From: a virus
Reading direction: 5' to 3' (one strand)
DNA length: 24,652 bases
Virus record (IMG/VR): IMGVR_UViG_3300013126_003298
Coordinates: 1 to 24,652 of that record
Made by a program: the position numbers and the translations under genes
Shown: positions 1 through 16,876 of the stretch, in pieces
Position numbering within the stretch: position 1 is the first letter of the stretch
How the letters are laid out: each line of letters opens with the position of its first letter
Notes under the pieces: model-generated
What the model saw: the letters and a program-made list of their open reading frames with translations, nothing else
What the model was told of the DNA's origin: nothing
The model's database searches: none

Positions 1-126
1 CCAAATGGTGATTTAAGAAGACAGATGGATACTAAAAGGCAAGAGAGTGTGGGATTATTACCAAAATTAGGATTTGAAAAAGCATTAGAAAAAACCTATG
101 AATACTACATCTCACATAATTTGTAG
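1..126 (+). CDS. C-terminal end of an NAD-dependent sugar-nucleotide epimerase/dehydratase (partial)
   Basis: The window opens inside this gene; frame 1 stays open from base 1 to the TAG at 124-126, giving the last 41 residues. The visible stretch PNGDLRRQMDTKR, followed by a KLGFEKALEKTYEYY-type ending, looks like the C-terminus of extended short-chain dehydrogenases such as GDP-fucose synthase or UDP-sugar epimerases, where the substrate-binding lobe ends with a 'D..r...lGf.....le.gl..t..wy' pattern. The complete epimerase at 997-1953 ends in a similar way (TLGWEAKTSIKEGLEKTLNWY), so the two are probably related. It overlaps the next gene by 29 bases. The Rossmann core lies outside the window, so substrate and activity cannot be judged. 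Confidence 0.7.
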   Translation, partial: PNGDLRRQMDTKRQESVGLLPKLGFEKALEKTYEYYISHNL

Positions 127-1000
127 TGGATGTTCATTTACTAATTTTCATGCCACCAAAGGTAAGAAAAGTACCTTTTGGCCCGAACATTTAGGGGATT
201 ACTATGAGAACGTATATAATGTAGGTTCTCCTACAAATGATGTTAAAACAACTGTAAGAAGTTTGATATATAAAGCAACCGAACTATTAGAGAAAGGTAT
301 TACCGATATCACCCTAATGGCATGTTGGACTTTTCTCAATAGAGATTCTATATTCGTACCAAACATCCCAAATTCAGTAATTCATAAAACTGATTATACT
401 GATACTAATTTTGAAAATGGATTTTATGCCCTAAGTGGAAATTTCTTTTATGATTGGATGAAAGAAGCAGAAGATTTCGAAAGAGAAAAAGAATATTTTA
501 GAGCAAAAGTAAAGTGGGTTCAAAGCGATGAAGAAGATACTCTTTCTTTCTTAGAATGGTTTCACTATTTAATTTGTTTTGCTGAAAGTAAAAATATCAA
601 ATTAAAAACATTCTTTATAAAAGATAATCTATCAACCGAAGAAACTATATTCGATGGGCAAATAGAAAATAATGAAGTAGAGAAAGAACCATTAAAATTT
701 GATGAAGTAGAACCAGTTTTACAACAATTATATTCAGAAAAGAAATTTAATAAAAGAGGAAACTTTAAAAGATTTGAACATATAATTTACATAAAAAAAT
801 TTTATGATTTAATTAATTGGGAAAAGTATTGTTGGTTTTATAGAAATGAGTACGGAGAATACGGTGGGGTATATGAATGGATATATGATAATATAGAAGA
901 AGATAGGTGGCTAGAGGGTAATATGATGGTAGCAGGGCATCCTTCTACAAAAACTTGGAAAAAATTTGTTGATGATATTTTATTAAAAGAAGTTATATGA
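98..1000 (+). CDS. SGNH-hydrolase-like protein, paralogue 1
   Basis: A 300-residue protein with the hallmarks of a divergent SGNH/GDSL hydrolase. A block-I-like GCSFT at residues 11-15 follows a short hydrophobic strand (Ser13 is the candidate nucleophile), a block-II-like GSPTND is at 43-48, an ACWTF strand stands where block III is expected, and GHPST at 280-284 supplies the candidate catalytic His281. No signal peptide or membrane segment is visible. The protein at 1934-2836 has the same length and the same motifs at matching places, and the one at 4686-5507 is a more distant copy. The family includes esterases and acyl-transfer enzymes acting on glycans; its position beside epimerases suggests glycan acylation or deacylation, but this is inference. 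It overlaps both neighbours (29 and 4 bases) and has no Shine-Dalgarno sequence. Confidence 0.65.
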   Translation: MNTTSHIICSGCSFTNFHATKGKKSTFWPEHLGDYYENVYNVGSPTNDVKTTVRSLIYKATELLEKGITDITLMACWTFLNRDSIFVPNIPNSVIHKTDYTDTNFENGFYALSGNFFYDWMKEAEDFEREKEYFRAKVKWVQSDEEDTLSFLEWFHYLICFAESKNIKLKTFFIKDNLSTEETIFDGQIENNEVEKEPLKFDEVEPVLQQLYSEKKFNKRGNFKRFEHIIYIKKFYDLINWEKYCWFYRNEYGEYGGVYEWIYDNIEEDRWLEGNMMVAGHPSTKTWKKFVDDILLKEVI

Positions 1001-1953
1001 ATAAAGAAAGCAAAATCCTAATATTAGGTGCTACCGGTTTCGTTGGTAGAAATTTGGCAGAACGATTGTACAACGAAGGATATACGAACCTTCGTAATCA
1101 TGGATATAATCGTAAATTAGAAGGTTTCGGAGAATCAGTTCAGGGTGATTTAAGAAATGAAGAATTTGTTAATCAAATTATGGAGGGAGTTGATGTTGTT
1201 TTCCATTGTGCAGCATCCACATCTAATGCAGTTGATACAATTTATGCTCCTCTTCTGCATGTTACTCCAAATGTTATAATTAATGCATTGACATTAGAAA
1301 AAGCATATAAGAATAAAATCAAAAAATTTATTTTTCTATCCTCTTCTACTATCTATCCTGAAAGTGGTGAAAGAGCAGTAAGAGAAACAGATAACATTTA
1401 CGAATCAATCTATAAGACATATTTTCCGGTAGGTTGGATGAAGAGATATGCAGAGGTTTTATGTAAGATGTATTCTGAGATTTTAGTTAATCCAATGCAG
1501 ACTGTAATTGTTAGACCTGCGAATTTATATGGCCCACATGATAAATACGATTTAGATAAGTGCCACGTTACTCCCGCTTCAATCATTAAAGTTGCAACTA
1601 GATTAGACCCGATTCCTGTGTGGGGAGATGGTACTGAAATTAGAGACCTTCTTTATGTTGAAGATTTTTGTGAGGCTTTGCAACTTATAATGGAGAAAGA
1701 GGAATCACATGAAATATATAATGTAGGTTCAAACAAAGGTTATTCAGTAAATGAAGTAATTGGGTATCTTAAAGAAATAGAAGGATTGGAATCTCCTATT
1801 GATTATGTTAATAACAAAGCTCCTATGATTCCAACAAGATTAATTGATTCTTATAAAATATTATACACTCTAGGGTGGGAAGCTAAAACTTCTATAAAAG
1901 AAGGATTAGAAAAAACATTAAATTGGTATAAGAGTGTTTATCTCAGCAAATAA
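997..1953 (+). CDS. NAD-dependent epimerase/dehydratase (extended SDR family)
   Basis: A 318-residue extended short-chain dehydrogenase. The nucleotide-binding GATGFVG is at 11-17, CAAST near residues 71-75 ends strand 4, and SSSTIYP at 115-121 carries the usual Ser/Thr of the active site. RPANLYGP (near 170) and a DLLYVEDFCEAL segment (near 220) are typical of the UDP-glucose 4-epimerase / GDP-fucose synthase group. The helix that normally carries YxxxK reads VGWMKRYAE, so Lys149 is present but the position four residues before it is Val145, not Tyr; the nearest tyrosine is Tyr142. The enzyme would interconvert or reduce an NDP-sugar, probably for a surface glycan. The exact substrate cannot be told. 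ATG start, 4-base overlap with the gene before and 20-base overlap with the gene after indicate translational coupling. Confidence 0.85.
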   Translation: MNKESKILILGATGFVGRNLAERLYNEGYTNLRNHGYNRKLEGFGESVQGDLRNEEFVNQIMEGVDVVFHCAASTSNAVDTIYAPLLHVTPNVIINALTLEKAYKNKIKKFIFLSSSTIYPESGERAVRETDNIYESIYKTYFPVGWMKRYAEVLCKMYSEILVNPMQTVIVRPANLYGPHDKYDLDKCHVTPASIIKVATRLDPIPVWGDGTEIRDLLYVEDFCEALQLIMEKEESHEIYNVGSNKGYSVNEVIGYLKEIEGLESPIDYVNNKAPMIPTRLIDSYKILYTLGWEAKTSIKEGLEKTLNWYKSVYLSK

Positions 1954-2836
1954 AAAATATATTCTTTGTAGTGGTTGCTCGTTTACAAATCTCAGACCAT
2001 TAAATCATTTACAAAAAGGAAATGATAGAGAACAATGGCAATGGCCAGAATGGCTACAATATAAATTGGGAGATGATTTTATTGTGCTTAATTTAGGAAA
2101 CCCAACTAATGATAACAATACGATTAAAAGAACAATAACATATTGGGTGGAATATATTAAACAAAATGGTGGTATTGTTCATAAAGTATTTGCTCAATGG
2201 ACTCAACCTTACAGAAGCTCTTTTTTGATTACCGATTACAAAGGGGAATTAGAAACAGGATCACATACGAATAATTATTTACCAAACCCTATTGAATATA
2301 AAGATGAATTTTGGTTTCTAACAGGTGGTTATTATGAAGTAAACAATTCAAAATATATTGGAATTGATAATATACTTAAAACCCATCATCTTAAATTAAG
2401 TAAGCAACATTCATATTCATTTATTGAAACTGTAATAGATTTATCAAATTATTTAGAAAAAGAAAATATAGATTATAATTATTTTACTATAAAAGATATT
2501 TTTTACGAACCTGAATTTTATACTGTTAATGTATATGATGGTGAAATTTGGTTAAACGAAGAATTAGATTATCATTATAATCAAAGTAAATTTTTTTCAA
2601 TTTATTTAGATAAAGTACCATTCCATAGATTCTGGTTTTACGAGGATAAAGGATTAAAAAAAGGAGGATTGTATGAATATTCTATTAAAAAGCAAAAAGA
2701 ACTAGATGATTATAGTGGATTAAAAAAAGTTCTATTTAGTGAAAACTTAAGCGGTGAATATGATTGGTTTGGACACCCATCATCGATACTTAATAAAAAA
2801 TTTGTAAATGAAGAATTAATAAAATATATTTTATGA
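1934..2836 (+). CDS. SGNH-hydrolase-like protein, paralogue 2
   Basis: A 300-residue paralogue of the product of 98-1000. GCSFT at 14-18 gives candidate nucleophile Ser16; the block-II-like GNPTND lies about 45 residues on, an AQWTQPYRSS segment occupies the block III position, and GHPSS at 280-284 gives candidate His281. The frame begins with GTG inside the end of the epimerase gene. No ATG lies between there and the GCSFT core, so GTG at 1934 is the only reasonable start. The C-terminus (W..GHPSS..NKKFV.EEL) matches paralogue 1 closely in layout. The repeated order epimerase then SGNH suggests that the gene pair was duplicated as a unit. Catalytic function and substrate are inferred from motifs only. 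Confidence 0.65.
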   Translation: MFISANKKYILCSGCSFTNLRPLNHLQKGNDREQWQWPEWLQYKLGDDFIVLNLGNPTNDNNTIKRTITYWVEYIKQNGGIVHKVFAQWTQPYRSSFLITDYKGELETGSHTNNYLPNPIEYKDEFWFLTGGYYEVNNSKYIGIDNILKTHHLKLSKQHSYSFIETVIDLSNYLEKENIDYNYFTIKDIFYEPEFYTVNVYDGEIWLNEELDYHYNQSKFFSIYLDKVPFHRFWFYEDKGLKKGGLYEYSIKKQKELDDYSGLKKVLFSENLSGEYDWFGHPSSILNKKFVNEELIKYIL

Positions 2837-3381
2837 GCCAACCAGAATATACTCCATATAAAGACGCCTTAACAAATGCGATGAATGAATTATCTAAAAA
2901 AGATAATATAGTTTTTATTGGGCAACAAATCGTATATAGAGGAAATCCTATGAGTACAACTTTAGATGAAGTTGATAAAAATTTAATGATTGAATTACCG
3001 GTTATGGAGGAGACTCAGATGGGAATGAGTTTAGGGTTGGCATTGGCCGGTAAATTAGTAGTTACATTTTATCCACGATGGGATTTTGTAGTATCAGCTG
3101 CGAATCAGTTAATAAATCATGTTGATAAAATAACTCTAATGGATAACAGTAAATTTGAGCCACATTTAATTATAAGATTAGGTAAAGGTTCGGATAAGCC
3201 ATTAGACCCTGGCCATCAACATAAAGGAAACTATATTGAAGAATTTAAATCATTGTGTAAGAATATAGAATTTCACGATTTAAAAACTCCATCCGATATT
3301 GAGTTAAGTTACAAATATGCAATGAATAATAAAGGTATTTATTGTTTAGTAGAGTATCCTGAATTATATTATGGAACTTAA
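2833..3381 (+). CDS. Transketolase / E1-beta-type pyrimidine-binding domain protein (single domain)
   Basis: A 182-residue protein consisting of one thiamine-diphosphate pyrimidine-binding domain, as in transketolase and in the beta subunit of pyruvate or acetoin dehydrogenase E1. The key stretch ELPVMEETQMGMSLGLALAG (residues 54-73) has the conserved P-x-x-E followed by a Gly-rich helix; Glu59 is the likely cofactor-activating glutamate. A YPRWDFVVSAANQLINH segment near 80-96 and GHQH at 127-130 fit the fold. Whole enzymes also need a pyrophosphate-binding partner and usually a C-terminal transketolase domain, and neither is in this protein. A partner may lie upstream of the window, as split transketolases do occur in sugar-biosynthesis clusters. 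It starts inside the stop of the preceding gene (ATGA overlap) and overlaps the next gene by 11 bases. Confidence 0.75.
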   Translation: MSQPEYTPYKDALTNAMNELSKKDNIVFIGQQIVYRGNPMSTTLDEVDKNLMIELPVMEETQMGMSLGLALAGKLVVTFYPRWDFVVSAANQLINHVDKITLMDNSKFEPHLIIRLGKGSDKPLDPGHQHKGNYIEEFKSLCKNIEFHDLKTPSDIELSYKYAMNNKGIYCLVEYPELYYGT

Positions 3382-4711
3382 TCTTATTTATGAAAATAAA
3401 ATAAATGGACTTATCCTACCAAATTGCCAACCGAAGGAGGTTTTTGAATTTTCAAAAAAATGGTTAATTGAAAATAGCTCTAATGATAATGGATTTTTAA
3501 CAAAAGAACTTTTTTCAGAGTTTGGTAATAATATTAGTGTATTGGGTAATAGTTTAGGATTTCAATCTATTGTAAATAGTGGATACGATCCTAAAACTAA
3601 AGTAACAATTAATAGAATATCGTTAAAAGAAATATTACTCAATCAGCGCAAATTTAAACATAGAAAACTATTGTTTGTAATAGAACCATTTGGTCATATA
3701 GACTATTTTAAACATCAGTTAATTAAATTAGATAAGAGTATATTTGAAGCATTAAAAAAAATAGATGCAACTATCGTAATAAATTATTCACATGAAGGTC
3801 ATTTAGAAGACTATTTTATTGAAGAAATACTAAAAAATATAGTTTATAAAAAAATTATATTTTTATACAATGATTATTTAAACGATTTTTCAAAATACGA
3901 ATCAAAGAATGTTTCTTTTATTAGATTCAATTATTATCTAAATAGAAGTAGTAGATATTTTCAACTTAATTTAAAGCAAAATCATATTAGTGATATATTC
4001 AATCCATTTGAAAAACAATTTCACTTTTTAAGCTTTAATCAATACCCTCACCATCATAGAGTAAAAGTAATTTCGGAATTATATAAAAATAAGATTGATG
4101 ATAAATTTTTAATTTCATATAATCCAAAATTTTACGATTTATTGGGTAGTGTAAAATATGATTATGAAAATCAATTGAAAGATTTAGGATTTTGGGACGA
4201 TTATTTATTGTTCACATCGTTACCAGAAAAAAAAGTAGATTTTGAAACAAATTTTAGAATAAGCGGATATGGATACGAAGATATAAGACCATATCAGAAA
4301 AGTGTAATCAGTTTAATAAGTGATACTATATTTTTTAAAAGACAGGGATTTGTATCTGAAAAAATATTTAAACCTATTATGTATCTTCAGCCTTTTTTAG
4401 TTGTAGGGCCACCTTATTATCTTAAAGAAATTCGTAATATGGGGTTCAAAACATTTGATGGGTTTATAGATGAAAGCTATGATGAGGAACTAGATGATAA
4501 AATTCGTTTAGAGAAAATAGTAAAAGAAATAATAAGAATTTCTAATACTCCAATTCAATTATTGTTAGAACAATTAAAAGAATTTGAAGATATATTATTA
4601 TATAATCAAATGAAATTATTATCGTTTGACCATTTAAATAGTGAAGTTAATACTGTGAAGGAATTAATAATAAAATCATATTGTAGTGAAGATAAAAAAA
4701 ATTTATTGTAA
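3371..4711 (+). CDS. Putative glycosyltransferase, fucosyltransferase-like C-terminal part
   Basis: A 446-residue protein whose first ~215 residues I do not recognise. The C-terminal half has a stretch like the donor-binding lobe of alpha-1,3-fucosyltransferases (GT10-like): SEKIFKPI at 329-336, followed by QPFLVVGPPYYLKE and the characteristic GFKTF (358-362) and DESYD (367-371). In that family an (S/T)EK-x-(F/W)-x-(P/A) motif contacts the nucleotide-sugar. SFNQYPHHHR at 221-230 may mark the junction between the two parts. Phage proteins with this tail are common but I know of no characterised member. The location after an epimerase and a TPP-domain protein supports a role in glycan assembly. 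ATG start 11 bases inside the preceding gene; no Shine-Dalgarno sequence. Confidence 0.5.
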   Translation: MELNLIYENKINGLILPNCQPKEVFEFSKKWLIENSSNDNGFLTKELFSEFGNNISVLGNSLGFQSIVNSGYDPKTKVTINRISLKEILLNQRKFKHRKLLFVIEPFGHIDYFKHQLIKLDKSIFEALKKIDATIVINYSHEGHLEDYFIEEILKNIVYKKIIFLYNDYLNDFSKYESKNVSFIRFNYYLNRSSRYFQLNLKQNHISDIFNPFEKQFHFLSFNQYPHHHRVKVISELYKNKIDDKFLISYNPKFYDLLGSVKYDYENQLKDLGFWDDYLLFTSLPEKKVDFETNFRISGYGYEDIRPYQKSVISLISDTIFFKRQGFVSEKIFKPIMYLQPFLVVGPPYYLKEIRNMGFKTFDGFIDESYDEELDDKIRLEKIVKEIIRISNTPIQLLLEQLKEFEDILLYNQMKLLSFDHLNSEVNTVKELIIKSYCSEDKKNLL

Positions 4712-5507
4712 CGGATGCTCACATTCTGCGGGAGGAGGATTAGAAATTGACAGGTTATTAGATGATGTTGTTTTTGTAAGAGATTATTATAAAGAAAGAT
4801 ATAATGTTTGGTGGAACTCACAATTAGAAGCAACATATATAAAATATACTTCAGATGTAATTAATTGTGAATATGTAAATGAGGCAGCTAGTGGAGGAGG
4901 AAGTGAGAGAGTTATAAGAATGGCGTATGATTTTGTTAAAAAAAATTATAAAGTAAAAGAAGAATTATTTTTAGTTCTAGAATTTCCATCATTAGGTAGA
5001 ATTGATTTATATTCAAAAGAATTAAATGACTATATAATTGCCAATTTGAACTTTATAAATAATGATTATAATGATGATTCCATAGATAATGTATATGCAA
5101 CGAGGGGGTATTATATTAAAGAATATAGCAAGGATAATCTTACTTTAATAAAACCTTTTAAATCTTATTATGAGAATTTTTTGTCTAGAAAAGCTCAATT
5201 TATAAAAGTTGGTAGGGAAATTAATACGTTTTTAGCTTATTTAGCGTATCATAAAATAAAGTTTATATTTTTTACCGGTGAATTTTCTACCTCAATTGAA
5301 TCACACTTTAAAGAAAGAAACCTATTAAAATTAAAATTAGGAAATAAAATAATTGAAGATTTGCATGAATTTGCGATTCAAACAAAATCTACTATTGCTG
5401 AAGAATGTAATTTCTTAACAACTGATTTACATCCTGGCTATTTCTCACATCAAAACTTTGGAAATCTCTTAGCGGAGTACATAATTGAAAATTATGAGAT
5501 TTTTTGA
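4686..5507 (+). CDS. SGNH-hydrolase-like protein, paralogue 3 (divergent)
   Basis: A 273-residue protein. It begins with a GTG that overlaps the preceding gene by 26 bases; the block-I-like NGCSHS starts only nine residues in (Ser12 candidate nucleophile), so a later start would destroy the motif. EAASGGGSERVIR near 62-74 is a good block II, LEFPSLGRID near 99-108 takes the place of block III, and DLHP at 247-250 is a canonical D-x-H block V with His249. It is closer to ordinary SGNH proteins than paralogues 1 and 2, which have GHPS instead of D-x-H. It ends the carbohydrate cassette; a short gap with the ATATTTATA motif follows. Confidence 0.65.
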   Translation: MKIKKIYCNGCSHSAGGGLEIDRLLDDVVFVRDYYKERYNVWWNSQLEATYIKYTSDVINCEYVNEAASGGGSERVIRMAYDFVKKNYKVKEELFLVLEFPSLGRIDLYSKELNDYIIANLNFINNDYNDDSIDNVYATRGYYIKEYSKDNLTLIKPFKSYYENFLSRKAQFIKVGREINTFLAYLAYHKIKFIFFTGEFSTSIESHFKERNLLKLKLGNKIIEDLHEFAIQTKSTIAEECNFLTTDLHPGYFSHQNFGNLLAEYIIENYEIF

Positions 5508-5522: not shown

Positions 5523-7862
5523 ATGAAAGAGCTAATAAAATTTTTAGTAGAAACTTTAATCGGAGAACAAACATCCGATAAAGTAGTTGTTTACTCTGGG
5601 AGATTCCAACCTTTCCACAAAGGCCATTTTGCAACATATCAAATGCTAGTGAAAAAATTTGGAAAAGAGAATGTTTACATAGGAACATCGAATAAAACCG
5701 ATAACATTAAATCTCCATTTGGGTTTAAAGAAAAGAAATATATTATAACTAAAATGTTTGGAATACCCTCAAATAAGGTAGTTCAAATAAAAAACCCTTA
5801 TGCACCCGTTGAAATTTTAGATAAATTTGATTCTAAAACTACGGCTTTTATTACCGCAGTTGGTGAAAAAGATGAATTAAGATTAGGTGGAAAATATTTT
5901 GAAAAGTATAAAGATAACGCCGATTTGGAAGGTTATATGGATAAGGGATATGTTTATATATCTCCATCTCAGCCTAATGCTATTAGTGGAACTGATGTAA
6001 GAAATTGGTTAGGTAAAGGAAGTGAAGAAGATAGGAAAAAAGGATTTATGAAAGCGTATCCTAAGTTTGATGATAAAATTTTCAAACTCATTACACTTAC
6101 CTTAAATAAAATAACAAAAGAAAGTTTAGTAGAAACTACATTAGGTGGGTATGGAGCCGATGAAGGTGAACCCGCTACTATGTACATTCCAGATGGAACA
6201 AAAAGAATATTAGATAAAGGAAAACCTGAGCCGTGGTTTAAACAATTGGGATTCACTCAAATGGATAAACCAAAAGCGGATAATATGAGAGGAAAGGGTA
6301 GAGCGAAGGATAAAGAATCTACGTTTAGAAAGGTTTACTATAAGGTTTCTAATATAGTTACAAGTGATTTAAAGCCAGTTGAAAAACCAAAAGGTGTTGA
6401 TAGCTGGAAGCAACTTAAAAAAGAAGATGTAATCAAAGGTGGATTAGCAGCAGGGATGAGTTTGGAAGACATTGCAAAGAAACATAATGTTTCTAATAAA
6501 GAAATTGCAGATGAATTTAGAAAAGGATATAAAGTAGAAAGAGAGCATACAGCTGATACCAATGTTGCAAAAGAAATTGCATTAGACCATTTATACGAAG
6601 ACCCAAATTATTATAGTAAGTTATCTAAAATAGAAACTCCATTAAGTGAGGGCTTACTTTTAGAAGGTGGAGCGTATGGTCACATGAATCACCCATTTGA
6701 CATTGAAATGAATCTTACATTTGGTGATTTGAAGAGAATAGTAAAGCAGGCATTAAGTGGCAAGTTAGAATTAGCGAGAGAAAAAACCGATGGGCAGGCA
6801 TTAGCAGTTAGTTGGGTAAATGGTAGATTAGTTGCAGCAAGAAATAAATCACATCTTAAGAACAAAGGTAAAGATGCGATGAGTGTTCAAGATGTAATAT
6901 CAAAATTTGCTGGAAGAGGTTCTGTATCCGATGCATTTAGTTTTGCAATCAAAGATTTAGAATCTGCGATTAAAGGGTTATCTGATACTAATAAAAAGAA
7001 GATATTCAAAGACGGTAAATGTTTTATGAATTGTGAAATCATTTATCCTGAGAATACAAATGTGATTCCTTATGGTCAATCACTTTTAGTATTTCATGGA
7101 ACTATGGAATATAATGATGAGGGAACTGCAATAGGAGAGAATCCGGAAGCTGGAGCACAATTAGCCGCTATGGTAAAAAAGGTAAACGCAGATATTCAAT
7201 CTAAGTTTAAATTACAGGGGCCTCCTATACAAAAATTGCCGATTAATAAAGATTTAAAATCCAAACAATCCCTATTCCTTTCAAAAATACAATCACTTCA
7301 AAATGAATTTGGGTTGACTGAAAAAAATGGAGTAGCTGATTATCATCAGGCTTGGTGGTTAAACTTTGTAAATAAAAATACAAAAGGATTAGATGAGCAA
7401 CAGAAAATTGGATTAGTAAAGAGATGGGCTTTTGGGGATAAAGGATTCCGAATCAAAGATATTAAAGATGAGAAGAATAGAGAGTGGGCTGAAAAAATAG
7501 AAAAACAAGACCAACAAAAAATAACAAAAGAAAATCTTCTTAAATTTGAAACTATATTTTTAGGAGTTGGGGCGGAGGTTTTATCATTTATGACTTCGGT
7601 ATTGACTGTAAATCCTGATGCAGCTAAACAACAAATGGTCGGTAGATTAGAAACGGCAATTAATTCAATTAGAGCTACTGGAGATGCTAAGAATTTAGAT
7701 AAATTGGAAATAGAATTAGCTAGAATTGAAGCATTAGGTGGGTTTGATAAAATAGTTCCAAATGAAGGAATCGTATTTAATTACAAAGGGAGTACATTTA
7801 AATTGACTGGAGCTTTTGCACCTTTAAACCAAATTTTAGGAATATTCACATTCAGTAGATAA
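5523..7862 (+). CDS. Fusion: NMN-adenylyltransferase-like domain, middle phage domain, polynucleotide-ligase-like domain
   Basis: A 779-residue multidomain protein. Residues 20-195 form a nucleotidyltransferase of the NadM/cytidylyltransferase type: SGRFQPFHKGH at 25-35 with the HxGH signature (His32, His35) and ISGTDVR at 154-160. Such enzymes join NMN and ATP to make NAD. Residues about 305-370 contain GMSLEDIAKKHNVS and then VEREHT...ALDHL.EDPNYY, a pattern I associate with a phage domain of unknown function (DUF5661-like, from memory). Residues 395-779 look like a covalent nucleotidyltransferase (RNA/DNA ligase or capping type): KTDG at 421-424 (Lys421 candidate AMP/GMP-attachment residue), CEIIYP around Glu505, EGIV at 748-751 and FKLTG at 759-763. 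The N-terminus MKELIKFLVE resembles T4 capsid-targeting peptides. L-x-E sites end at Glu10, Glu204 and Glu381, close to the domain borders. The stop overlaps the next start by one base. Confidence 0.8.
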   Translation: MKELIKFLVETLIGEQTSDKVVVYSGRFQPFHKGHFATYQMLVKKFGKENVYIGTSNKTDNIKSPFGFKEKKYIITKMFGIPSNKVVQIKNPYAPVEILDKFDSKTTAFITAVGEKDELRLGGKYFEKYKDNADLEGYMDKGYVYISPSQPNAISGTDVRNWLGKGSEEDRKKGFMKAYPKFDDKIFKLITLTLNKITKESLVETTLGGYGADEGEPATMYIPDGTKRILDKGKPEPWFKQLGFTQMDKPKADNMRGKGRAKDKESTFRKVYYKVSNIVTSDLKPVEKPKGVDSWKQLKKEDVIKGGLAAGMSLEDIAKKHNVSNKEIADEFRKGYKVEREHTADTNVAKEIALDHLYEDPNYYSKLSKIETPLSEGLLLEGGAYGHMNHPFDIEMNLTFGDLKRIVKQALSGKLELAREKTDGQALAVSWVNGRLVAARNKSHLKNKGKDAMSVQDVISKFAGRGSVSDAFSFAIKDLESAIKGLSDTNKKKIFKDGKCFMNCEIIYPENTNVIPYGQSLLVFHGTMEYNDEGTAIGENPEAGAQLAAMVKKVNADIQSKFKLQGPPIQKLPINKDLKSKQSLFLSKIQSLQNEFGLTEKNGVADYHQAWWLNFVNKNTKGLDEQQKIGLVKRWAFGDKGFRIKDIKDEKNREWAEKIEKQDQQKITKENLLKFETIFLGVGAEVLSFMTSVLTVNPDAAKQQMVGRLETAINSIRATGDAKNLDKLEIELARIEALGGFDKIVPNEGIVFNYKGSTFKLTGAFAPLNQILGIFTFSR

Positions 7863-8413: not shown

Positions 8414-9241
8414 ATGCCACAACTTTTTGACAGAATCATTTTAGGGGAATGTATTATTGTATCCAAAGAAATTGGAGATAAATACATCCTTGCTAAAAAT
8501 AGAGATAGAGCGTATAACCCTCAATTAGAAGTTGTACACACTATTATAGATGGTGTTGAAGTAGTTTATCTACATGATATAGTGACGGACTGGAGTGAAG
8601 GAATGAATGAGCATGGTATAGGAATTGTAAATACTGCTTTAATGGTGGGTTATGATGAAGAGGAAAAGAAGATAGTGAAGAAAAAAGGAAAACCATCAAA
8701 AGATGGAGCGAAGATAAGAAAAGCATTAGGGTCTTCTACTCTTAAAGAAGCCATTAGATATGCTGTTCAATATGAGGGTGGGATTAAAGGGCATACATTT
8801 GCAAGTTCACCTAAAACAACTGTTTCAATAGAAACAACCTCAAAGCACAATCCAAAGATTAATTTGGTAAATAGAGAGCATCCAATGGTTAGAACAAATC
8901 ATGGTCATTATTATACCGATGCGGGATACATCGATGGGCCTGATTATAAGAGTTCAATCGTAAGAAAAATAAGTGCGGAGAAACAAATGGATAAAGTAGA
9001 TGATTGGAATCTGATTGCTCCATTAATGAGGAAGAATTTTTATAAAGATGATTCTCCATTGAATATGAAAAGAGATACTAAAAAAATGAGCACATCATCT
9101 CAATTAGTATTAAATCTTACTGATAAGATTTTTCAACTATCTTATTTTGAAAACAAAGTTGAATCATTTGAAGGTATAAAAGTAAATTTACCAGAGGGAT
9201 ATACTCCAAAAATTAAGATAGAAGTTAAAAAGATATCTTAA
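8414..9241 (+). CDS. Ntn-hydrolase-like protein (choloylglycine hydrolase / C45 acyltransferase type)
   Basis: A 275-residue protein resembling N-terminal-nucleophile hydrolases of the choloylglycine hydrolase and acyl-CoA:6-APA acyltransferase group. The supporting pattern is Cys13 in GECIIVSK, then LAKNRDRAY (Arg30, Asp31), EGMNEHGIGIVN (Asn65) and RTNHGHYY (160-167), which match in order the Cys...NxD...MNexGL...RTNH landmarks of the family. In active members the catalytic Cys becomes residue 1, so residues 1-12 would have to be removed by self-cleavage. The family cleaves or forms amide bonds in bile salts, penicillins or peptides. Why a phage would place one just before its terminase is unknown. 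It may be a structural or processing relative, and activity is not certain. Confidence 0.55.
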   Translation: MPQLFDRIILGECIIVSKEIGDKYILAKNRDRAYNPQLEVVHTIIDGVEVVYLHDIVTDWSEGMNEHGIGIVNTALMVGYDEEEKKIVKKKGKPSKDGAKIRKALGSSTLKEAIRYAVQYEGGIKGHTFASSPKTTVSIETTSKHNPKINLVNREHPMVRTNHGHYYTDAGYIDGPDYKSSIVRKISAEKQMDKVDDWNLIAPLMRKNFYKDDSPLNMKRDTKKMSTSSQLVLNLTDKIFQLSYFENKVESFEGIKVNLPEGYTPKIKIEVKKIS

Positions 9242-9278: not shown

Positions 9279-9959
9279 ATGGCAAAAAAAGAATTTAAAA
9301 AGGATTTAATGCATAAAACCCGCCGAGAATTGGTGGATTATGTATTCAGAGGGGAAGACCCATCAAAATCATTTGGGTACGAAAAATCTAACCCTAACAT
9401 CAAAAGAAAGGTTGGCGAAAGATGGGAAGATGATACATACCAATATGAACAAAAAGAGGGGTATGTATTAAAGACAGGTAAAAACCACGAAGTATTCCAA
9501 TCAATCAGAGAATTTTTAAGAGAAAAAGAAAATTGTTCTAACCATTCTTGTCAAAAACAAAAATATGGAGAGAATGATAAACTTTTAATAAAACAATCCG
9601 GATTTTGTATTGATTGTAATTTGGAAATGGACTCCGAAGCAAAAAAACTAAATATTTTTGATGAATATAAAAATTTTAGAATTTTCGGAAGAGCTATTTC
9701 TCAAGCAAAAGAAGCAAAACGACAAATAGAAGATGGTATTAAGGAATTGAAACCATTTTATGAGCAGGTATTAGAAGATGGTAGAATTGAGGTGTGGCAT
9801 CTACCAAAACCTATGGAAGAAATGAAGGCTGATATGGAGTTGGAGATAAAAAATATAGAAAAAGGATTAGTAGAATTGGAAGAAGATATAGTTATTTATG
9901 AAACTAAATTAAAAGATTTAGACAATCCAATTCTAAATAAATTATTTAATGCAAGATAA
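9279..9959 (+). CDS. Zinc-ribbon and coiled-coil protein in the small-terminase position
   Basis: A 226-residue charged protein. Residues 86-113 contain two cysteine pairs, CSNHSC (Cys86, Cys91) and CIDC (Cys110, Cys113), which could bind one zinc ion. Residues about 140-215 are rich in E, K, L and I and should form a coiled coil or long helices. It ends 11 bases inside the large terminase gene. The T4 small terminase gp16 is also a mostly helical coiled-coil protein encoded just before gp17, so the position makes this a candidate DNA-recognition subunit, but I see no gp16 sequence signature and T4 gp16 has no such zinc ribbon. The leader holds alternating AT sequence and a weak AAAGG two bases from the ATG. 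Confidence 0.55.
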   Translation: MAKKEFKKDLMHKTRRELVDYVFRGEDPSKSFGYEKSNPNIKRKVGERWEDDTYQYEQKEGYVLKTGKNHEVFQSIREFLREKENCSNHSCQKQKYGENDKLLIKQSGFCIDCNLEMDSEAKKLNIFDEYKNFRIFGRAISQAKEAKRQIEDGIKELKPFYEQVLEDGRIEVWHLPKPMEEMKADMELEIKNIEKGLVELEEDIVIYETKLKDLDNPILNKLFNAR

Positions 9960-11532
9960 AGGATTATCATTAAAGGATGTAATCAGAGAGGAATATAAAA
10001 AATGTGCCGCTGACCCGGTATATTTTATGAGAAAATATTGTAAGATTCAACATCCTACAAAAGGTAAGTTGCGTTTTGAACTTTTTCCATATCAAGAAAA
10101 AACTCTTCATCAATTTAAAGACCATAGATATAATATAGTTCTTAAATCTCGTCAAACGGGTATCTCCACATTAACCGCAGGTTACTCATTGTGGAAGATG
10201 ATATTCAATCAGGATTATAACGTACTTGTAATTGCAATTAAGCAAGAAGTTGCTAAAAACTTAGTAACAAAGATAAGGGTTATGTATGATAACTTACCGA
10301 GTTGGTTAAAGGTAGCAACACAGGAAGATAATAAACTATCATTAAGATTAGTAAATGGTTCACAGGTAAAAGCAATTCCGTCTTCACCAGATGCAGGTCG
10401 TTCTGAAGCCTTATCACTTTTAGTAATAGATGAAGCGGCATTCGTTCCAGATATTGTAGAAATTTGGGCATCTGCAACTCCTGCACTATCAACGGGTGGT
10501 AGTTGCATCGCACTTTCTACTCCTAATGGTGTAGGTAACTGGTTTCACCAACAATGGGTTGGAGCAGAGGAACAAACAAATGAGTTTAATCCAATTTATC
10601 TACATTGGTCGGTGCATCCTGAAAGAGACCAAAGGTGGAGAGATGAGCAGGGAAAAGTATTGGGAGAAAAATTGGCAGCTCAAGAGTGTGATTGTGATTT
10701 TATTTCTTCAGGTGATACCGTTATTGCTCCAGAATTATTGATGTGGTATAAAGAAACATTTGTTAAAGAACCGATTGAAAAGACTGGATTTGACGGAAAT
10801 TATTGGAAATGGGAATATCCAGATTATCAAAAATCATATATGGTTGTAGCCGATGTGGCGAGAGGAGATGGCTCGGATTATTCTGCATTTCATGTTTTTG
10901 ATATTGTAAATAATGTTCAGGTTGCTGAGTATAGAGGAAAGATGGAAACTAAAGATTATGGTAATTTTTTAGTAAGTGTAGGAACTGATTGGAATAACGC
11001 ATTGATAGTAGTTGAAAACGCTAATATTGGTTGGGCAGTAATTCAGCAAATTATAGATAGAAATTATTCAAACCTATACTATCAAACACAAGATTACAAG
11101 TATATTGATATTGAAAAACAATATACAAATAAATTTAATGCGGAAGAAAAAAGACAAGTGGCAGGATTTACAACATCAGCAAAAACAAGACCACTTATCA
11201 TATCAAAGTTAGATGAGTACTTTAGAAGTAAAGAAGTGGTGGTTCAATCACTAAGATTAATAGATGAATTATTTACTTTTATATGGTACACTAATAGAGC
11301 TGAAGCAATGAGAGGATATAATGATGACTTAATAATGGCATTCTCTATTGGATTATGGGTGAGAGATACCGCACTTCGTTTAAGACAAGAAAGAATGGAT
11401 TTAACAAAAGTGGCAATCGATTCTATTTCTACAACAGGTTTTTCTATGGGTTCAGCAAACGAAAGAATGAGAGCAAATCCCTATGAAATGAATATTGGCG
11501 AGGGAAATGAAGATATAAGATGGTTATTCTAA
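9949..11532 (+). CDS. terL: Terminase large subunit (T4 gp17-like)
   Basis: The DNA-packaging motor, 527 residues (T4 gp17 is about 610). The N-terminal ATPase has Walker A KSRQTGIST at 66-74, Walker B LLVIDEAAF at 157-165 with Asp161 and catalytic Glu162, and the coupling motif ALSTPNG at 188-194. The C-terminal RNase-H-like nuclease has its acidic residues in VVADVARGDGSD (Asp302), VVENANIGW (Glu356) and NDDLIMAF (Asp459/Asp460). The protein would dock on the portal encoded at 12406-14310, translocate DNA with ATP and cut it at headful. The start overlaps the preceding gene by 11 bases. In T4 genes 18 and 19 follow directly; here they do not. Confidence 0.96.
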   Translation: MQDKGLSLKDVIREEYKKCAADPVYFMRKYCKIQHPTKGKLRFELFPYQEKTLHQFKDHRYNIVLKSRQTGISTLTAGYSLWKMIFNQDYNVLVIAIKQEVAKNLVTKIRVMYDNLPSWLKVATQEDNKLSLRLVNGSQVKAIPSSPDAGRSEALSLLVIDEAAFVPDIVEIWASATPALSTGGSCIALSTPNGVGNWFHQQWVGAEEQTNEFNPIYLHWSVHPERDQRWRDEQGKVLGEKLAAQECDCDFISSGDTVIAPELLMWYKETFVKEPIEKTGFDGNYWKWEYPDYQKSYMVVADVARGDGSDYSAFHVFDIVNNVQVAEYRGKMETKDYGNFLVSVGTDWNNALIVVENANIGWAVIQQIIDRNYSNLYYQTQDYKYIDIEKQYTNKFNAEEKRQVAGFTTSAKTRPLIISKLDEYFRSKEVVVQSLRLIDELFTFIWYTNRAEAMRGYNDDLIMAFSIGLWVRDTALRLRQERMDLTKVAIDSISTTGFSMGSANERMRANPYEMNIGEGNEDIRWLF

Positions 11533-16276: not shown

Positions 16277-16876
16277 ATGAAATCACTTTTAATAGAAACT
16301 AGATTATTTGAAGGGAAACTTAACGAAGACGAAAACGGTGTAGTTTTGGTTAAAGGTGTATTACAAAGAGCTGATGCACAAAATCAAAATGGTAGAGTGT
16401 ATCCTAAAGAAATATTAGAAAGAGAAGTTGATAAATACCAACAACTTATCAAAGAAAAAAGAGCTTTGGGTGAATTAGATCATCCTGAATCTTCAGTTGT
16501 ATCCCTTAAGAATGTTTCTCATAATATCAGAGAATGTCAATGGAATGGAGATGATTTAGTAGGTGTAGTCGAAATACTCCCAACTCCATCGGGAAATATC
16601 CTTAAAGAACTTTTGAAAGCAGGTATTCGTTTAGGAATATCATCAAGAGGCATGGGTTCAGTAGAATCTATGGGAGGAAATAAAGTAAAAGTTGGAGAAG
16701 ATTTTGAATTAATAGGTTGGGATTTTGTATCTAACCCATCAACACAAGGAGCATTTATGGAATCCTTAAATGAATCAGTTAAATTACAATTAAACGAATC
16801 TATTGGAACTGATGTATGTGGTGAGTGGTGCAAAACTCAACACTTAATAAGAGAAATAATCGAAGAGTTATCCTAA
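16277..16876 (+). CDS. 21: Prohead maturation protease (T4 gp21-like)
   Basis: A 199-residue serine protease of the T4 gp21 group (a herpesvirus-assemblin-like fold). Key parts are VLVKGVLQRADAQNQNGRVY (23-42), GELDHPESSVVSLKNVSH (65-82) with catalytic His69, and GIRLGISSRGMGSVE (116-130) with the nucleophilic Ser at 122 or 123. It would cut the scaffold, core and capsid proteins after Glu in L/I-x-E contexts once the prohead is complete. Its own N-terminus (MKSLLIETRLFEGKLNE) has two L-x-E sites, fitting self-processing. T4 gp21 is slightly longer (about 212). It lies two bases after the preceding gene and two bases before the bS21 gene. Confidence 0.9.
   Translation: MKSLLIETRLFEGKLNEDENGVVLVKGVLQRADAQNQNGRVYPKEILEREVDKYQQLIKEKRALGELDHPESSVVSLKNVSHNIRECQWNGDDLVGVVEILPTPSGNILKELLKAGIRLGISSRGMGSVESMGGNKVKVGEDFELIGWDFVSNPSTQGAFMESLNESVKLQLNESIGTDVCGEWCKTQHLIREIIEELS

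Follow-up and report, generated by a model that had tools for sequence, protein, structure and literature searches.

A NadM-like adenylyltransferase and a ligase-like domain joined in a predicted head-packaged polyprotein of T4-like aquatic phages

Results

Open reading frame and its relatives

The window, by which we mean the whole stretch of DNA analysed (24,652 nucleotides of the IMG/VR virus record IMGVR_UViG_3300013126_003298), carries on its plus strand, at 5523..7862, an ORF that starts with ATG, stays open over 779 aa without stops and encodes a polyprotein composed of a leader, a NadM-like domain, a variable linker and a ligase-like domain. A sequence-only reading of this DNA had placed an NMN-adenylyltransferase-like and a ligase-like domain in this one frame, and both assignments hold up; the motif positions it gave were all exact (HKGH, residues 32-35; ISGTDVR, 154-160; the VEREHT...ALDHL pattern; KTDG, 421-424; E505; EGIV, 748-751; FKLTG, 759-763). 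With the window ORF as the query, 333 related IMG/VR stretches were found, the copy of Microcystis phage Mel-JY01 returned 304, and a search with a profile-derived two-motif pattern returned at least 582 matching stretches. The ORF is thus far beyond a chance frame, and the fusion is conserved across hundreds of viral contigs and is encoded by aquatic T4-like phages that form a widespread group. Among 33 full-length close relatives, the first c. 200 and the last c. 400 residues are conserved and the middle is a mosaic; the 639-aa protein of Mel-JY01, the closest annotated isolate, has hardly any linker between the two domains.

Adenylyltransferase domain and linker

Residues 20-190 (5580..6092, +), with the motifs GRFQPFHKGH and ISGTDVR, were assigned by Pfam, NCBIfam and Foldseek to a NadM-type adenylyltransferase domain of the HIGH superfamily. 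Pfam CTP_transf_like matched residues 23-161 above its cut-off (7e-7), and the best fold match was NadM (2qjo/2qjt, E 7e-4). The NCBIfam NadM/NMNAT models matched the first 60-70 residues of the domain well below their whole-protein cut-offs, the score being 36.9 bits against 418 for the curated NadM equivalog. The first domain, which had been proposed as NMN-adenylyltransferase-like, is thus NadM-like, and it is predicted to synthesize NAD from NMN and ATP. Both the HIGH (GRFQPxHxGH) and the SxTxxR/SGTxxR motifs are intact in the window copy; in 28 of the 88 family members with a readable motif, another residue stands in place of the first HIGH His. The motif reads GRFQPFGPHH in relatives of a marine clade (e.g. 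L106 and L146), with SGTxxR retained, and this GxHH variant may have altered chemistry or lost activity.

Residues 191-378 (6093..6656, +) form a variable mosaic linker in the alignment of relatives, mostly of low confidence in the full-length model and enriched in [LI]xE. The VEREHT...ALDHL pattern, from which a middle domain had been read, is present; however, the region is really a small DUF5661 module (residues 316-371; 6468..6635, +; Pfam 8e-14, above cut-off) inside this highly variable linker, and it is missing from many relatives. DUF5661 also recurs as a small module in phage proteins unrelated to this one, among them a Vibrio phage DUF2213 protein.

Ligase-like domain

Residues 382-779 (6666..7859, +) form a ligase-like covalent nucleotidyltransferase domain, always C-terminal, as judged from motifs, predicted structure and Foldseek. 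Motifs I (KxDG), III (E), IV (EGxV) and V (K) of covalent nucleotidyltransferases occur in the correct order in 212 of 212 distinct sequences, in all of which H387, H390, K421, D423, G424, R440, E505, E748, G749, K760, T762 and N769 are invariant. On the plus strand, motif I (KTDG, 6783..6794) contains the predicted adenylated Lys421, and Arg440 (6840..6842), 19 residues further on compared with 20 in T4 Rnl2, is a candidate motif Ia. Motif III is Glu505 (7035..7037), which aligns with Glu159 of T4 Rnl1, and the stretch from EGIV of motif IV (748-751) to Lys760 of motif V occupies 7764..7802. In the predicted structure a helical insertion, the helices of which mostly have high pLDDT, lies between motifs IIIa and IV (approximately residues 542-740; 7146..7742, +). 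Nineteen residues follow K760, and nothing resembling a known C-terminal ligase domain was seen there.

Residues 382-779 gave no convincing match in Pfam, PHROG or PDB profile and sequence searches. The T4 RNA ligase 1/2 family gave no significant Pfam match, and motif V is KLT with a single Lys, not KxK; PDB sequence matches obtained with profiles of the domain (e.g. ribosomal eS6) were weak and apparently spurious, and were set aside. The full-length model (mean pLDDT 63) was too poor for judging the C-terminal domain, and a model of the domain from a 41-sequence alignment (pLDDT 81, pTM 0.73) showed a mixed core carrying the motifs plus the helical insertion. In a Foldseek search of the PDB, the top nine matches were all RNA ligases (archaeal ligases and T4 Rnl2), with low TM and a best E of 0.13, none being significant, and T4 Rnl1 and the Naegleria ligase came next. 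Against viral models, the family itself came first, followed by an Ackermannviridae protein (1e-7) and a Synechococcus phage S-PM2 'cytidyltransferase' protein (1e-3); most of the remaining named viral fold neighbours were RNA ligases. hhalign found the correct register, placing K421 opposite K99 (Rnl1) or K35 (Rnl2) and E505 opposite Rnl1 E159; however, the scores were only marginal, 1-7 of 60 column shuffles scoring equally high, and this comparison was dropped as proof of kinship.

The sequence-only reading had staked its C-terminal assignment on the predicted structure, and the model, with PDB E values of 0.13 or worse, does not overturn a nucleotidyltransferase fold. With the motifs in 212 of 212 sequences and RNA ligases leading the weak fold matches, the region very probably belongs to the covalent-nucleotidyltransferase superfamily; an RNA ligase is our best specific guess and a reasonably probable one. 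In one relative (L168:2438-3661) the domain is broken into ORFs of 132 and 273 aa, by a frameshift or a sequencing error.

Modules of the relatives

In all 96 unique complete ORFs the ligase-like domain comes last, 0-3 residues before the stop; most of these ORFs are 421-2463 aa, with varying N-terminal modules and a fixed C-terminal domain. The adenylyltransferase was present in 56 of 60 non-redundant proteins, a P-loop kinase preceded it in about 22, and three had a CCA-type PolyA_pol. Pfam counts over 40 relatives were 30 for CTP_transf_like, 19 for Zeta_toxin/AAA_33 kinase, three for PolyA_pol and two for HD, and a PDB search with the kinase module gave no specific kinase family. It is marine relatives that gain the kinase and, in some cases, a CCA-adding enzyme together with an HD domain. 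Three proteins of c. 425 aa consist of little beyond a short leader and the ligase-like domain, and in L165 this domain stands alone behind a short leader, MKFLKSYEEFLNE-NLILE-GG. A giant-phage relative carries a ParB_N domain; a scan for relatives of a giant-phage copy (L083) gave nothing further.

Several single architectures were also observed. A marine phage polyprotein of 2463 aa (L164:1836-9224) contains SH3-like, P-loop kinase, CCA-type PolyA_pol plus RNA-binding, HD and adenylyltransferase domains, a membrane-like segment and the ligase-like domain, with many [LI]xE sites. An ATP-dependent zinc protease-like domain (PF05618) lies between both enzymes in L146:1450-5058, and an RNase_T exonuclease domain occurs in a further member of the family.

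Leader, protease sites and gene neighbourhood

The N-terminus of the window protein is MKELIKFLVETLIGE. Its first 15 residues (5523..5567, +), MKELIKFLVE followed by TLIGE, constitute a capsid-targeting-like leader with two [LI]xE gp21-type sites (E10 and E15), as judged by T4 rules and conservation. Internal proteins of T4 have leaders of 10-19 residues, and in IPIII residues 4 and 7 serve targeting and residues 8 and 10 cutting; gp21 cleaves after [LI]xE-type sites, such as ITE-6 and LTE-619 of Alt (PMC9026906, PMC5694885). MKELIKFLVE agrees with IPIII at the key positions 4, 7, 8 and 10. E15 lies within [LI]xE in 33 of 33 close relatives, as does E381, which ends LLE (residues 379-381; 6657..6665, +), a gp21-type cleavage motif located where the ligase-like domain starts; family-wide, [LI]xE immediately precedes the domain-opening GG in 80 of 94. 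In Mel-JY01 the predicted cut lies near IIAE|GGLGGHM. Across the 33 relatives, leader and linker are rich in [LI]xE, whereas both folded domains are depleted of it. A leader [LI]xE at residues 8-22 was found in 91 of 93 complete family ORFs versus 249 of 655 (38%) other ORFs in the same loci, the test for the family being the more lenient on start choice.

The window also encodes a T4-type portal, gp23 and a gp21-type prohead protease (Peptidase_S77; 16277..16876, +; PF03420, 4e-27), which is a candidate processing enzyme. A large terminase gene lies downstream of the ORF (9949..11532, +); its homologue is downstream in 121 of the 123 loci with enough sequence, and an annotated terminase is correspondingly placed in L082 and L084.

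Mass spectrometry detected T4-GC190, a putative citidylyltransferase, in virions of cyanophage S-SM1 (Sullivan et al. 2010, PMC3037559), and virions of S-CREM2 contain a cytidylyltransferase, for which the authors suggest encapsidation (PMC10665884); this evidence concerns distant cyanophage homologues, not the window protein. The S-SM1 homologue starts with MKKFSAFLNE, the same M-K-x4-F-L-x-E pattern as in the window. Pairwise BLASTP of the window NMNAT against its S-SM1 counterpart gave no match (E 0.26), and the link runs through a profile: phrog_395 hits both the window (4e-14) and S-PM2 (6e-44), and S-PM2 matches S-SM1 at 6e-42.

Packaging in the phage head is a well-supported prediction, and the polyprotein would be cleaved there into its parts. 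The leader, protease sites, head-gene location and virion proteomics, which the sequence-only reading had missed, speak against a cytoplasmic bifunctional enzyme and for a packaged polyprotein, the domains of which are probably separated.

Link to cyanophage DUF6267

The S-PM2 protein has DUF6267 at residues 5-398 (2e-111), followed by an adenylyltransferase, i.e., the window pair in reverse order. It matched 521 phage records, mostly of cyanophages, in 201 of which a single place covered at least 80% of the fused length; among the matches listed, the pair is usually two neighbouring genes annotated 'hypothetical protein' and 'cytitidyltransferase'. In S-SM1 the genes for T4-GC190 and for DUF6267 (T4-GC71) overlap.

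DUF6267 and the window domain have in common the ordered pattern H-x2-H, KxDG, EGxV-x8-K-x-[VT], F-x3-N, which was drawn post hoc from both families and is present in 41/41, 11/11 and 10/10 alignment rows (62, some shared between alignments) and in 0 of 7188 other ORFs. In hhalign comparisons of DUF6267 with the window domain, one alignment outscored all 100 shuffles and the other 99 of 100; Pfam DUF6267 (PF19782) itself gave no match to the window domain at E 10. The ligase-like domain thus appears, from these alignments, to be distantly related to cyanophage DUF6267. The cyanophage pair of DUF6267 (PF19782, phrog_455) and cytidylyltransferase (T4-GC71 and T4-GC190) is the same domain pair, adjacent or fused, though in the opposite order, and RNK and E of the window domain correspond to GTK and QxD in DUF6267. 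Fusion in both orders together with adjacency would, we argue, mean that the two activities work together.

Discussion

The reading that we favour, to which we give about even chances, is a polyprotein, packaged in the head and cut by a protease, that counters host defences by delivering NAD synthesis and RNA repair. The polyprotein would enter the prohead via its T4-like capsid-targeting leader, and the phage gp21-type protease would cut after [LI]xE, setting free a NadM-type adenylyltransferase and a ligase-like nucleotidyltransferase. Both enzymes would enter the host alongside the DNA at infection, a delivery suggested by the leader and the homologues; the adenylyltransferase would make NAD from NMN and ATP, and the ligase-like enzyme, adenylated at Lys421, would seal broken RNA, most likely tRNA. 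Both may then blunt NAD-draining or tRNA-cutting host defences before phage gene expression.

Repair of NAD depletion and of RNA breaks caused by host defences was one of two functions suggested by the sequence-only reading, and it gains support from the extra kinase and CCA-adding modules of some relatives. In jumbo phages, RNA repair brings together ATP-grasp RNA ligases with polynucleotide kinases, phosphoesterases and template-independent nucleotidyltransferases (PMC7824862). The modules of the longest relatives come close to this set, and this domain company therefore favours RNA repair plus NAD restoration as a counter-defence. The broader proposal is put forward more tentatively: aquatic T4-like phages would inject, as a pre-emptive counter-defence ahead of all phage gene expression, a capsid-packed, protease-cut kit made up of an NMN adenylyltransferase, a kinase, a CCA-adding enzyme and a member of a new ligase family to which DUF6267 belongs.

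Internal head proteins, NadM-like domains, the ligase superfamily and polyvalent proteins are all known kinds. The T4 internal head proteins (IPI-III and Alt) share with the window protein a leader of 10-15 residues with F7, [LI]8 and E10, [LI]xE sites and a gp21-type protease in the same cluster; the window protein, in contrast, adds NAD-making and ligase-like domains and internal [LI]xE sites, its packaging and cleavage being predicted here from sequence. In T4 Rnl1 and Rnl2, which act with the PseT kinase/phosphatase, motifs I, Ia, III and IV have the same order as in the window domain, a kinase partner occurs in the window relatives, and RNA ligases dominate the fold neighbours. However, the window domain has a helical insertion of c. 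200 residues before motif IV, a single motif-V Lys, no C-terminal specificity domain and no significant sequence match to these ligases. Polyvalent proteins are likewise large multidomain mosaics related to conflict, for which delivery together with the phage DNA has been proposed (Iyer et al. 2017, PMC5512222), an architecture seen in the window family over the 96 unique complete ORFs, though with a different domain set. In that survey, RNA ligases were never seen to associate with its 2H domains (PMC5512222).

The window protein also shares a HIGH-superfamily domain and NadM-like motifs with the NadM-type NMN adenylyltransferases and NARP2, a phage pathway of NAD reconstitution in which NadV is the partner, but differs in being without a Nudix domain and fused to a ligase-like domain. 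In a survey of viral NAD metabolism, every phage with NadM also had NadV (PMC9503650), whereas in the relatives NadV was found in 0 of 15 records and PRPP synthetase in 0 of 17, several of these records exceeding 100 kb and many being fragments; NMN would therefore have to come from the host. NARP1 was considered and dropped, since its Namat resembles Nampt and is not of the HIGH type, and the 17 records contained no relative of PRPP synthetase. The NARP1 partner Adps is PRPP-synthetase-like.

Among the alternatives, packaged DNA repair is unlikely, though it survives best. The ligase-like domain would seal nicks in phage DNA at packaging or after entry, the adenylyltransferase would keep NAD available, and the target would be DNA, not RNA. 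DNA ligases belong to the same superfamily, the gene lies upstream of the terminase in 121 of 123 loci and the giant-phage relative has ParB_N; however, the top PDB fold neighbours are RNA ligases, just one named viral neighbour is a DNA ligase, T4 gp30 DNA ligase gave no motif-register alignment with the C-terminal domain, and the CCA-adding and HD partners point to RNA.

Quite improbable is a closed cycle within one protein, in which NAD made from NMN would be consumed by an NAD-dependent ligase or capping activity, with NMN released again. This was the other function suggested by the sequence-only reading, and it gained no support: Pfam profiles of the Ia and adenylation domains of NAD-dependent DNA ligase (LigA) gave no match even at E 10, just c. 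40 residues precede Lys421 in the domain, the predicted cleavage would separate the two domains and the ligase-like domain stands alone in some relatives. Speaking for this cycle are the fusion in both orders and, with no NadV found in the 15 records, the need for some other NMN source, such as ligase turnover.

A hijacking effector like T4 Alt, whose C-terminal nucleotidyltransferase would modify host proteins or RNA ends by AMPylation, NAD-capping or similar, has a precedent in the packaged Alt itself (PMC5694885), and no recognizable nucleic-acid specificity domain follows motif V; the motif set and fold neighbours are nevertheless those of ligases, and we consider such a role very unlikely. 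A head morphogenesis or core protein with secondary or degenerate enzymatic domains would fit the location among head genes and the changed HIGH motif of some family members, but it is the least probable reading, given ligase-like catalytic residues invariant in 212 of 212 sequences, HIGH and SGTxxR motifs kept in the window copy and a module content that varies widely, unlike that of a scaffold.

The reading as packaged NAD synthesis and RNA repair, which we continue to prefer, gives a single testable function to two phage gene families that are very common yet unexplained: DUF6267 and the core 'cytidylyltransferase' of cyanophages, which was detected in virions in 2010. If true, tRNA and NAD repair would arrive with the DNA and not be made post-infection, the expected working of NAD-depleting and tRNA-cutting defences against marine phages would change, and the known ligases would gain a new family marked by an unusual helical insertion. 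The openly searchable papers describe neither the combination, nor its route of delivery, nor a new ligase-like family that takes in DUF6267, and none of them mentions DUF6267.

Flavobacterium immuto phages encode, upstream of the terminase, a large mosaic protein annotated NadR (L084:1875-4595) with HIGH-type and apparent HExxH metallopeptidase-like segments. This NadR-like protein of 907 aa was considered as a relative and rejected, since inspection by eye showed no ligase-like motif in it and it seems to be a mosaic of its own. In the window itself, a 275-aa ORF at 8414-9241 resembles by eye an Ntn-type acyltransferase/hydrolase, with no Pfam match at E 0.01. Positions 98-5507 hold GCSF/GCSH-type hypothetical proteins, an epimerase-like ORF and, just upstream of the polyprotein gene, a short transketolase pyrimidine-binding protein (PF02779), perhaps forming a glycan-modification island in the head region.
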